The translations under genes and the position numbers were made by a program. A stretch of DNA of 64,000 bases from Psychrobacillus sp. FSL K6-4046 (GTDB taxonomy: Bacteria > Bacillota > Bacilli > Bacillales_A > Planococcaceae). The notes beneath the pieces were generated by a model. That model was not told where the DNA came from and did not search any database. It saw only the letters and a program-made list of their open reading frames with translations. Positions 18,928 through 56,714 of the stretch are shown piece by piece. The number at the start of each line of letters is the position of its first letter. Position 1 is the stretch's first letter. The stretch lies in assembly GCF_038624605.1 (NCBI RefSeq), contig NZ_CP152020.1:1295312-1359311 (forward strand), given 5' to 3'.

Positions 18928-19152
18928 ATCATTTAACGAAGAAAAGTCCGAAGTAGTGATTATACATACTGTTTAGAGAGCTAACGGTCGGTGAAAGTTA
19001 GTCAGTGTATAAAAGCGAATTACAGGCTTGGAGTTATACGTTTTCACAACGTTACATGTGAAAAAGCGGAAGGATTGATCCTTCAAGCTGGGTGGTACCG
19101 CGCTAATGACTAAGCGTCCCTGCATGATTTTTATCATGTAGGGACTTTTTTG
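18928..19152 (+). promoter_or_regulatory. Tyrosine-specific T-box riboswitch with terminator
   Basis: The core T-box sequence GGGTGGTACCGCG lies at about 19090-19102. The specifier is TAC (19021-19023) in the AGCGAATTACAGG loop, a tyrosine codon, matching the downstream gene. A 13-bp terminator stem (19116-19128 with 19133-19145) followed by TTTTTT competes with the antiterminator. Uncharged tRNA-Tyr pairs with specifier and T-box and permits tyrS transcription. Confidence 0.95.
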
Positions 19153-26746: not shown

Positions 26747-26925
26747 AAGTTGTTTTCCGTTGCGGCGAACGCTTTCCGCGGGCACGGCTTAGGCCAACAG
26801 GATGTTGGTCAGGAAAACGTTGTCACACGATGTGACGTCCTTAGTTTTCTCTCCTTGAAACTCCCTCGCTGTGCTCGGTCCAGGGTCTTCAGCTCGCGCT
26901 ATTCCCGCTGGAGCATTCCTGTATT
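26747..26925 (+). repeat. Dispersed repeat family B, copy 1 (left part, interrupted)
   Basis: It shares TTGTTTTCCG, GCGGACGCTTTCCG-type, GGGCACGGCTT and TTCAGCTCGCGCT blocks with the copy at 41950. Between the arms is a variable centre with its own hairpin (GGCCAACA/TGTTGGTC). It stops at CCCGCTGGAG. The expected continuation AGTCGTCGCCTGCTCTCCAAAC is found at about 28673-28695, beyond the transposase gene. Confidence 0.75.
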
Positions 26926-54042: not shown

Positions 54043-54294
54043 AGTTGTTTAACTTGTATTCAACAATCGGGCCAGATTGTTATATAACCATCTGAATAAA
54101 CAAGTGATTAGTCTAAAGATAAAGCCCAGTGGTAATATGTCAAGCGAAAAAAAGAAATGAATTGGAAATTACTTAAGTGATACTTTCCAAATGAACACTT
54201 TTTGCGCATACCAAATAAACCTCTCATTTTTCTGCTTTTAAAAAAGAAAAAAATGGAAGTTATTTAACGGGTGAAAGGTTGTGAGTTGGTTAAC

Positions 54295-55530
54295 TCAGTC
54301 TCTCCTTTCTGGTGGTATGTACAGCTGATTCGTGCGTAGTAGCGAATGCACGAGGCGTACTAGTTTTCTAGCGGTTAAGACGAGAGCGCGTTTATGTTGG
54401 TGCTTGGTTACTTCTTGGTATTTCTTTTGATAAAAGGCTTTATATTCAGTGTCATATTTACGTACCGCATCTGCTGCTTGTACAAGATAATACCGTAGGT
54501 ATTTATTGCCGGTTCGCATCCGGCTAGTATTTTCGGCTTCAAATTCGCCAGATTGATACTGTGTCCAAACGAGTCCAGCATATTTCGCTAATGCGTGGTG
54601 GTCATCAAAACGCTTGATATCTCCAATTTCGGCGAGCAAGCCGGCTGCGTACACGGGTCCAATGCCTTTTACGGAAGTTAATGTTTGGGTGAAACCTTTC
54701 ATCATACGCTCGATTTCCTTATCCAAACGTTTGACTTGGGATTCCATATGGCGAATCGTACTTAAAATCACGGATAGTGAGATGTTAACGGGATCAGCCA
54801 TGGCCTTGTCTAATCGAAAGGAATTACGTGCAAGCTTTTGAAGATATTTAGCGATTTCTTCTGGCTCGGCAAAACGTTTTTTGCCTTTCTCCTGTAAGAA
54901 CTCAACCAGTTCTTCTAAAGGCATCTCGGCAATGGTTTCCGGATCTAGCTCTTCAATGACAGCGAGACTGGTCGTACCGAATGTATTCGAGAACGGGTTA
55001 TCTTGGCGTAGGCCACTAAACTTTAAAAACAGTTGGTTCATCATGTAGGTTTTATTACGTGCAACTTCATGCATTAGATGGAATCGGGTACGTGTTAAAC
55101 GACGAAGTGCTTCATATTGTAAGGTTTCTTGCATTTCATGTGGCAGACGTCCAAAGCGTAAATGATCCGCAATTACCCAGGCGTCAATTCGATCGTTTTT
55201 CGGTAACGTATCGTACCCCTTTTTAAAGCGAGATACTTTACGTGCATTTAACATATAAACCGCTGTTTGAAACGTTGGTTCATAATTGTGCAATTGATTC
55301 TTTAAATAATGAGCAACGTGCCAGCTATACTGGTCTGTCGCTTCTAATCCAATTTTAATATGTTCGCACTGATTTTTTTCCGCTGTTCCTAAAAGCTTTT
55401 GAATTAAGGTGTTCGCACCTTCTGTATCATTGGAAACAGAAAAATCAGCGAGCGTATGTCCCTCTCCATGCATGAAATGGACATGATGGGAGCGCAAACT
55501 CACGTCGATACCGACTAGCATTTGTGACAT
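54295..55530 (-). CDS. IS110-family transposase (DEDD recombinase)
   Basis: The 411-residue product has D9 in LVGIDVSLRSHHVHF, a Glu in IGLEATDQYSWHV (about 64), two Asp in PKNDRIDAWVIADHL (about 114-118), a coiled middle, and the transposase_20 part with LTSVKGIGPVYAAGLLAEIGD, LAKYAGLVW and the AENTSRMRTGNK segment. ATG 55530 has AGGAGGTG upstream. It appears full-length. It shares only family features with the transposase at 27021, so these are two separate acquisitions. Confidence 0.93.
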   Translation of the reverse strand: MSQMLVGIDVSLRSHHVHFMHGEGHTLADFSVSNDTEGANTLIQKLLGTAEKNQCEHIKIGLEATDQYSWHVAHYLKNQLHNYEPTFQTAVYMLNARKVSRFKKGYDTLPKNDRIDAWVIADHLRFGRLPHEMQETLQYEALRRLTRTRFHLMHEVARNKTYMMNQLFLKFSGLRQDNPFSNTFGTTSLAVIEELDPETIAEMPLEELVEFLQEKGKKRFAEPEEIAKYLQKLARNSFRLDKAMADPVNISLSVILSTIRHMESQVKRLDKEIERMMKGFTQTLTSVKGIGPVYAAGLLAEIGDIKRFDDHHALAKYAGLVWTQYQSGEFEAENTSRMRTGNKYLRYYLVQAADAVRKYDTEYKAFYQKKYQEVTKHQHKRALVLTARKLVRLVHSLLRTNQLYIPPERRD

Positions 55531-55567
55531 GCCAATCACCTCCTAAGGTGGGATTAATCAAGATTGT

Positions 55568-55810
55568 CTCAGACCTGGGTGCCCATCAGAATCATCGATG
55601 TCTGCCTCGTTATTAGCAATCAAAGTGAAAGAAGACCAAAATGAGCGCTACACTCTCTTCTTCCTCAGCGTCGCAGCCAGTGGTTAGACCTTCCATAATG
55701 AACGATGGGTAGCAGGCTTATTAAGCAGTGCACTAAGTGCCCGCAAGGGGGAAAAGCTATTTCCTGTGTCAACCTTGTCCGTTCCATTGTCTCATGGGCA
55801 CGGTCTGAGA
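55568..55810 (-). ncRNA. Candidate IS110 bridge/seek RNA in the transposase 5' leader
   Basis: TCTCAGACC-tgg-GTGCCCAT (55568-55587) and ATGGGCACGGTCTGAGA (55794-55810) are perfect inverted partners of 17 bp apart from a 3-base bulge, enclosing 206 bases. On the minus strand this closes a roughly 243-nt RNA domain just upstream of the transposase gene, the place where IS110-group elements encode their guide RNA. Internal loops were not modelled. Confidence 0.55.
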
Positions 55811-55833
55811 GAAAAGTAGATTGAAATAAAAAA

Positions 55834-55873
55834 GGACGAAGTACTGAAATGGAGCATCCTCCAATCTTCGTCC
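55834..55873 (-). terminator. Hairpin with minus-strand T run upstream of the IS110 leader
   Basis: GGACGAAG / CTTCGTCC with a 24-base loop is followed on the minus strand by TTTTTTATTTC. It would insulate the element from upstream minus-strand transcription. Confidence 0.5.
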
Positions 55874-55958
55874 AAACGATATGAAGTTAGGCAACTCAAA
55901 TAAGCAGGTAAGCACCTGTCAGCTTTATTTAGTCATGTTAAAAATAGACTTTTCCTTT

Positions 55959-56019
55959 TTGGCTCCCTCGGTAAAGCAGGGGTCAAACAGGTAAAACATA
56001 AAAAGGGTGAGGGAGCCAA
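55959..56019. repeat. Isolated long inverted repeat
   Basis: TTGGCTCCCTC (55959-55969) and GAGGGAGCCAA (56009-56019) are perfect 11-bp partners around a 39-base centre containing GCAGGGGTCAAACAGG. No T tract fits a terminator. It lies between the IS110 leader and the gene at 56127; nature unknown. Confidence 0.5.
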
Positions 56020-56126
56020 GAGGCGACCACTTCCTATAGGAAATCCAACAGATCCTCCAGCTGTCCGGATCAACTGGAAATTCTATCGGAAAGAGCTCTT
56101 ATTACTAATATACGAGGGGGATTTAT

Positions 56127-56714
56127 ATGAATACAAAACGTAAAAGGAAGGTCATAGGTTCAGGAGTATTTATTGTACTTGTTATAGCTTTCATATCTTG
56201 GTATTATCCATTATCGCTTTTTAGCGTCCATCAAAGCTTTACATATCATCCTGGTTCGAATACTCATAATGGCAAAACCTACGAAGAAGAGATTGGCGAG
56301 TTTAAAGCTACCTATGAGGAGGATCTAAAAAAGGATTTAAAAAGTGATAATTACAATCCTACGGTAAATAGAACTCAATTTATTCTTCCGATTTTTGAAC
56401 AAGAATGGCTGATCGGCACGGACTCCAAAACAATTGACAAAGATAAACTGGATAGAATGCTTTTCGATGTACAACAGGCAAGAAATACCCTGTTAGACCT
56501 TGTTTCTGAAGGAGATTATTCCAGAGAAGAAAGGGGATACCTGGTTGATAGTATAAATAATTTCCTGCACTTGGAAGAGCGTATTAGATTTATAAGAAAC
56601 GGAAAATATTTTTCGAGAAGTGATTTGCAAAGGATGTTAGGTAATTTACACGGAGATTTCTGGACAGGTTTTAATTACTATACCACCGTTTTTTATGATG
56701 TGTCTCACAAATAA
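56127..56714 (+). CDS. Membrane-anchored protein of unknown function
   Basis: The 195-residue product has a basic N-terminus (NTKRKRK), one hydrophobic segment (about 9-33, ending SWYYPLSLF), then a polar, largely helical extracytoplasmic domain (DKDKLDRMLFDVQQARNTL, LVDSINNFLHLEERI). GAGGGGGA precedes ATG 56127. I do not recognise the family. It follows the IS110 element in a segment with no B. subtilis counterpart and may have come in with accessory DNA. Confidence 0.65.
   Translation: MNTKRKRKVIGSGVFIVLVIAFISWYYPLSLFSVHQSFTYHPGSNTHNGKTYEEEIGEFKATYEEDLKKDLKSDNYNPTVNRTQFILPIFEQEWLIGTDSKTIDKDKLDRMLFDVQQARNTLLDLVSEGDYSREERGYLVDSINNFLHLEERIRFIRNGKYFSRSDLQRMLGNLHGDFWTGFNYYTTVFYDVSHK

Follow-up and report, generated by a model that had tools for sequence, protein, structure and literature searches.

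The question raised by this locus is what is encoded in the long non-coding leader of a transposase gene. The window, as the whole analysed stretch of 64,000 nucleotides from Psychrobacillus sp. FSL K6-4046 is called here (contig NZ_CP152020.1, positions 1,295,312 to 1,359,311), contains an IS110-group insertion sequence, and a first-pass annotation had proposed that the leader, closed by an inverted repeat, is the bridge RNA of that element. Comparison of element ends, core, empty site and helices, and of guide segments with targets and donors, indicates that the domain at 55567-55810 (minus strand) is almost certainly such an RNA: its guides covary with targets and donors, and its helices covary.

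The element occupies 54123-56114 of the minus strand when one copy of the CT core is counted; the core reads AG on the plus strand at 54123-54124 and the second copy lies at 56115-56116. The host genome, a single contig of 3,885,841 bases, carries seven copies that are identical over 1999 bases and lie in unrelated, diverging flanks. In what follows, L with a number labels homologues, sites and comparison genomes, and near and distant refer to relatedness to the window element. An exact empty site was found in L123, a genome of the same species as the host (G011 is assigned to that species). There the left flank is continuous into ...GATAAAGGGGGATTTATATG with core AG/CT, where the occupied site in the window reads ...GATAAAG, then the element, then AGGGGGATTTATATG. 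This places the insertion within the Shine-Dalgarno sequence of the gene that begins at 56127, with AGGGGG (56115-56120, plus strand) left by the start codon, beside the left end. In three other genomes of the genus (L124-L126) the gene has AAAGGGG or AAAGGGGG, and the site is free of the element. Both the CT core and the exact empty site are characteristic of the IS110 group; the right-end core of one relative, L044, reads TT.

The transposase gene (54295-55530, minus strand) encodes a DEDD/RuvC-Tnp recombinase of 411 amino acids if started at the ATG at 55530, as was done here; the open reading frame (ORF) list has an upstream GTG at 55539. The product matches PF01548 (DEDD_Tnp_IS110) and PF02371 (Transposase_20) in Pfam and reaches a score of 256 (cut-off 140) with NCBIfam NF033542 (transpos_IS110, 'RNA-guided transposase'), and its C-terminal part matches the IS621 and ISCro4 recombinase chains in PDB. 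Candidate catalytic residues D10, E64, D114 and D117 together with S328-G329, placed by motif and numbered on an alignment row that begins one residue before the ATG, were invariant in seven aligned homologues. The combination of a RuvC-like DEDD and a Tnp_20 domain that defines IS110-group recombinases is present. TIGR-Tas (PMC12045711) gives an NCBIfam match over residues 208-382 of 59.7 bits, below the cut-off of 100. The non-coding ends measure approximately 581 nt upstream of the transposase gene versus approximately 170 nt from its stop codon to the right end; the domain lies, as the earlier assignment had it, in the left non-coding end, upstream of the transposase, which is where the IS110 group carries its RNA, and the Pfam and NCBIfam matches place the element in the IS110 family.

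Homologues were drawn from Bacilli, with transposase identities of 41-100%. Matches at E ≤ 1e-80 were obtained in 12 of 261 genomes of the family and in at least 23 of 398 sampled genomes of the class (best four candidates per genome), the host being counted in both; the order-level search covered the same 261 genomes. A further 22 loci came from a named collection and a few more from other families. Grouping by upstream sequence gave 32 groups, among which that of L045 in fact had no upstream sequence and was excluded; L047, L070 and L024 were dropped for the same reason. Another 21 loci, some of them duplicates, were dropped where the transposase match lacked its 5' end, L098 being rescued by hand for the counts and L061 for display only. 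The left end was not found by pattern in L093, L096, L061 and L100, and the copies in G011 (L026-L043) are contig ends whose guide was taken as identical to that of the window element.

The inverted repeat on which the original proposal was founded is real. It comprises 9 + 8 Watson-Crick pairs, 17 in total, interrupted by a one-sided 3-base bulge and situated 5' of the transposase, whereas the best such repeat in 200 dinucleotide-preserving shuffles of 55531-55830 had 8-14 pairs and none reached 17. One arm was correctly placed at 55794-55810; the other lies at 55567-55586, not 55568-55587, and the domain closed by this stem, P1, is consequently 244 and not 243 bases long. Among 18 aligned leaders the two halves of P1 showed 91% and 93% standard pairs versus 86% after shuffling (0/500 shuffles reached either value), with three pairs in each half altered on both sides. 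For 41 hand-set pairs in the same rows (P1a, P1b, P2, P3, P4a, P4b and P5a) the figure was 93% versus 84% shuffled (maximum 87%), and 14 pairs, distributed over P1 and four further helices, carried double-sided changes. Covariation among homologous leaders, named beforehand as the observation whose absence would count against the proposal, is therefore present. Hand-setting favours structure already seen, and in five of the 18 rows a one-column shift was made manually. Extra pair types in the helices were no more numerous than in shuffles of these rows (374/500 reached the count), and P5a was invariant. Plain MAFFT and RNAalifold on the first leader set, in which five rows were missing, gave a poor consensus, and this set was replaced by the 18 rows with hand-set helices. 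Rfam returned no match for the element at the gathering score, sub-threshold matches having E values of 4.6 or more, so that it matches no curated riboswitch or other RNA family at that score.

The domain contains all four of the guide segments that an IS110-group bridge RNA carries, in separate target-binding and donor-binding loops as anticipated in the first-pass annotation, and they match the flanks. In the target loop, whose distal hairpin is P3, TTTTCCCCCTTGC matches the target strand of the insertion sites of the window element. The left target guide (LTG; 55745-55754, minus strand) is TTTCCCC-CT plus T, an anti-Shine-Dalgarno sequence. Over positions -1 to -9 of the left target flank, in 28 elements and 51 site rows (50 distinct sites, since L026 repeats the site of L009), guide and target agreed at 0.652 versus 0.536 ± 0.019 when permuted (0/5000), the signal arising at positions -2, -4, -5 and -7. 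Relatives in which both sides changed together include TATCACTC with TATCACTC (L073), TTCTCCTC with TTCTCCTC (L053), ATCGCTC with ATCGCTC (L105) and ATCTCTC with ATCTCTC (L107). The right target guide (RTG; 55717-55724, minus strand), TTAATAAG, pairs with CTT to the right of the core. Its match to the first base after the core was 0.985 versus 0.784 permuted (0/1500; 27 elements, 42 sites), with CTA (L053, L093) and CTG (L103) among the cases; L110 and L111 were excluded as the pattern had matched the wrong place.

These target matches allow two accounts of site choice to be compared. If Shine-Dalgarno-like DNA were recognised by the protein and host composition created an apparent guide match, then CTCCT- or CCCCT-type targets would be expected in nearly all elements, as is observed, the Shine-Dalgarno sequence being a common motif. 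The host, however, offers AGGAGG-N6-ATG 95 times and AGGGGG-N6-ATG 40 times (two of the latter at insertions), and all seven insertions lie at AGGGGG, as predicted by a CCCCCU guide; host composition is therefore an unlikely cause. Covariation at -4, -5 and -7 across elements likewise speaks against protein-driven choice, which is left barely credible. By the guide reading, the guide of the window element is an anti-Shine-Dalgarno sequence, resembling the anti-Shine-Dalgarno end of 16S rRNA, and the element inserts at ribosome-binding sites while leaving AGGGGG. Copies lie just upstream of start codons because the guide matches the ribosome-binding signal. At 38 of the 50 distinct insertion sites an ORF of at least 50 codons with the expected orientation began 7-18 nt from the core; applied within the window, the same test succeeded at 9% of positions overall, 25% of AGG[AG]G and 54% (15/28) of AGGAGG. 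Three of the 12 sites that failed had no start codon in range and the remainder had a shorter frame only. Distant relatives (41-49% identity) also lie at Shine-Dalgarno-like sites, and this address therefore looks old in the clade. In the Shine-Dalgarno sequence of the transposase itself (55539-55544 and the homologous positions), AAGGAG was seen in 0/17 near and 10/11 distant elements; avoidance of self-insertion is one possible explanation for its lack in the near elements, mere descent another.

The segment AACCACTGGCTGCG in the domain matches the right end, ACCACTGGG-CT, and the left donor guide (LDG), ACCACTGG at 55677-55684 (minus strand), agreed with the donor at 0.954 versus 0.770 ± 0.020 permuted (0/5000), the six-base match being exact in 21 of 29 elements with 11 donor variants. 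Guide and donor changed together as CGCTAG, CGCTTG, CGCAGG, CACTAG and CACAAG. The right donor guide (RDG), ATAACGAG at 55606-55613 (minus strand), pairs with the left-end sequence CTCGTAT if a single base is looped out; it was placed by eye from the alignment and no covariation test was applied, because the donor side is nearly constant. By eye, it takes the form AU-N-ACGAG in near relatives and resembles AUACNCGAG in many distant ones, with bases looped out against CTCGTAT. The guides thus lie in the left end, and not in the right end where the IS1111 group carries its guide RNA. The earlier expectation that loop segments would complement both target and donor flanks was borne out, with covariation over 27-29 distinct elements.

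Alternatively, the domain could act in cis as a leader of the transposase mRNA, in the manner of an attenuator or riboswitch and not as a guide RNA, its matches to ends and targets being incidental. Its position directly upstream of the transposase Shine-Dalgarno sequence and the terminator-like hairpin that precedes it would suit such a role, and the anti-Shine-Dalgarno LTG could pair with the ribosome-binding signal of the transposase itself. A cis-acting leader nevertheless fails to predict target and donor matches at fixed places, or target guides that covary with independent insertion sites, and is considered highly improbable.

Several observations weigh against the assignment of the domain as a bridge RNA. 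When 55531-55830 was folded as the first-pass annotation had suggested, the 300-nt leader as a whole was only slightly more stable than its shuffles (z score -1.07; 30/200 as good). Free energy alone is therefore not decisive, and the proof comes from the comparative evidence. Within the LTG, position -6 was weak (141/2000 permutations) and no signal was seen beyond -7; six site rows (L080, L092, L121, L101, L106 and L118) match at only 3/9, and the guide of L104, missed by the pattern, matches by eye at -1 to -4 only. For the RTG the second base was weak (38/1500) and the third onward not significant, and the first-base rule is broken by two of the five L048-type sites, L050 and L051. The LDG is one base off its donor in 8/29 elements. 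A terminator-like hairpin, SL4, situated between the junction promoter described below and the domain, would have to be crossed by transcription. Shuffles of the helix columns preserve column make-up and not relatedness, and the helix and LDG-donor counts are uncorrected for kinship; the target-guide test is less exposed to kinship because target sites are independent insertions.

Transcription of the domain could be accounted for by joining of the element ends. The right end carries TTGACA as a -35 box (54138-54143, minus strand) and the left end TATATT as a -10 box (56107-56112, minus strand); once the ends are joined around CT, 17 bp separate the two. All 28 readable junctions among 31 listed elements, three having one end that was not found, gave TTGAC[AT]-17-TATNNT (TAATAT in L112). 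A scan of 54100-56160 for promoters directed outward from the left end yielded, as the sole promoter-like site, the right-end -35 box paired with host DNA, and nothing on the plus strand.

Between this promoter and the domain lies an accessory structured module of approximately 280 nt (55831-56112, minus strand) with several hairpins, including one at 55959-56019. It was more stable than all 200 of its shuffles (z score -3.25). With lengths taken to the edge of the bridge domain, 30 shuffles for each element and masked bases of L121 read as A, the module was 304-451 nt long with z scores of -2.3 to -6.7 in 17/17 near elements, that of the window included; among 11 distant elements the score was -3 or lower in five and not in the other six, and four have fewer than 100 nt. 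In 12 of the 18 near elements a hairpin with arms like GGCTNCCNC and GNGGNAGCC is clearly formed. Both arms are present in L121 with masked sequence between them, L053, L054, L073 and L096 fold otherwise, and L099 lacks the motif.

Since it directly follows the junction promoter and folds better than shuffles, this 5' module might itself be regarded as the functional guide RNA. The guides, however, were located in the P1-closed domain; in L075, L107, L112 and L077 the module shrinks to 57-96 nt and is no more stable than its shuffles (z scores of -1.5 to 1.8), yet in three of these elements the guide agrees with the target at 7-8/9 (L112: 4/9). The module was rejected as the guide RNA, given its short or unstructured form in several distant elements, and such a role is very unlikely.

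With the domain taken as the bridge RNA, a cycle can be proposed. Excision would produce a circle in which the ends, joined around CT, form the TTGACA-17-TATATT promoter and drive transcription of the left end. The RNA would fold into the P1-closed domain with a target loop comprising the LTG TTTCCCC-CT-T, the distal hairpin P3 and the RTG UUAAUAAG, and a donor loop comprising the LDG ACCACUGG, the distal stem P5 and the RDG AUNACGAG. In a putative ribonucleoprotein with the DEDD recombinase, it would pair with the joined ends as donor and, as target, with CCCCCTT on the strand opposite Shine-Dalgarno sequences. Strand exchange at CT, by chemistry presumed from work on IS621, would then place the element so that its left end faces the start codon of the host gene; AGGGGG would remain beside ATG, and the native upstream region would be severed.

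IS621, among the closest known systems, targets repetitive extragenic palindromic (REP) sequences. According to the portions of its two descriptions used here (PMC11208160, PMC11208158), it shares with the window element the left-end site of the RNA, the DEDD recombinase, the CT core, the junction promoter, the order of LTG and RTG and of LDG and RDG, and, as read by eye here, a discontiguous right donor guide pairing; for IS621, Durrant et al. report discontiguous pairing of nine RNA bases with seven donor bases (PMC11208160). The same portions give an IS621 RNA of approximately 177 nt from the junction promoter, in contrast to the 244-nt domain with its basal closing stem and the approximately 300 nt of additional, structured left-end sequence that precede it in the window element. 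Likewise, seekRNAs of ISEc21 and IS1111 elements are RNAs of a non-coding region that specify the target and are naturally reprogrammed among relatives; they differ in being 70-100 nt long and, in IS1111 types, downstream of the transposase gene, as far as the sections consulted state (PMC11187229).

In IS900, an IS110-family element of Mycobacterium avium subsp. paratuberculosis, the reported target motif is CATGNNNNNNTCTCCTT, and 51 insertion sites were reported outside coding sequence (PMC8141618). The complementary strand of this motif amounts to a Shine-Dalgarno sequence with a start codon, like the target of the window element; the likeness concerns the target motif, and the sections of that account used here make no mention of a guide RNA. 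The address itself is therefore not new. In the open-access literature, judged mostly by title, opening of the abstract and term counts, no paper was found on a bridge RNA with Shine-Dalgarno sequences as its programmed target, a scope that leaves subscription papers, preprints and ISfinder outside. Bridge RNAs being known, what appears to be new, judged from sequence, is a bridge RNA guide that accounts for the Shine-Dalgarno target. For an element that reads the code for translation start, the target would be one that hosts cannot give up and that lies before many genes, and insertion there spares the coding sequence. The window element also offers a bridge-RNA explanation testable for IS900-type targets, the 28 guide-target sets constitute a natural series for learning mismatch rules, and this Bacilli recombinase clade is a resource for programmable insertion.

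The added left-end module bears on how the supply of bridge RNA is controlled. SL4 (55834-55873, minus strand), followed by a T-run (55828-55833), may be a terminator, a 5' stem-loop of the bridge RNA as in that of IS621, or a switch. Its inner hairpin motif was found in 13 of 18 near elements and not by motif in the other five; a T-run of at least four follows it in 8/13, namely the window element and the seven nearest relatives tested, and five others keep the hairpin without the T-run. Under a more elaborate proposal, which we consider doubtful, the left end would act as a two-part RNA switch in which the module and SL4 gate transcription of bridge RNA and transposase from the junction promoter and thereby control transposition, and the anti-Shine-Dalgarno guide also acts as an antisense brake at the ribosome-binding site of the transposase.

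Reduced forms of the element were also observed. L018, in a genome of the same genus (G015:C1:1920501-1920834), is a miniature derivative of approximately 330 bp adjoining a CTCCT site, which keeps the left end (approximately 241 nt, accessory module only) and the right end with its -35 box, without bridge RNA or transposase; it is probably mobilised in trans. L017 (G003:C1:2970794-2971263) is a truncated copy that retains the left end with roughly half the bridge RNA before running into unrelated DNA. In two genomes of the genus, L019 and L020 consist of approximately 50 bp resembling the left end, next to TCTCCT; an apparent helix-turn-helix gene lies a few hundred bases further on, and the right end was not found by pattern. 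The left ends of L055, L121 and L103, otherwise distant elements, share by eye a GTAGCCGAACCCG...CCGAAGGGCGAGGA segment, perhaps a mobile palindrome. Elsewhere in the window, a T-box leader lies at 18930-19124 and a Bacillaceae-1 RNA at 26794-26860.
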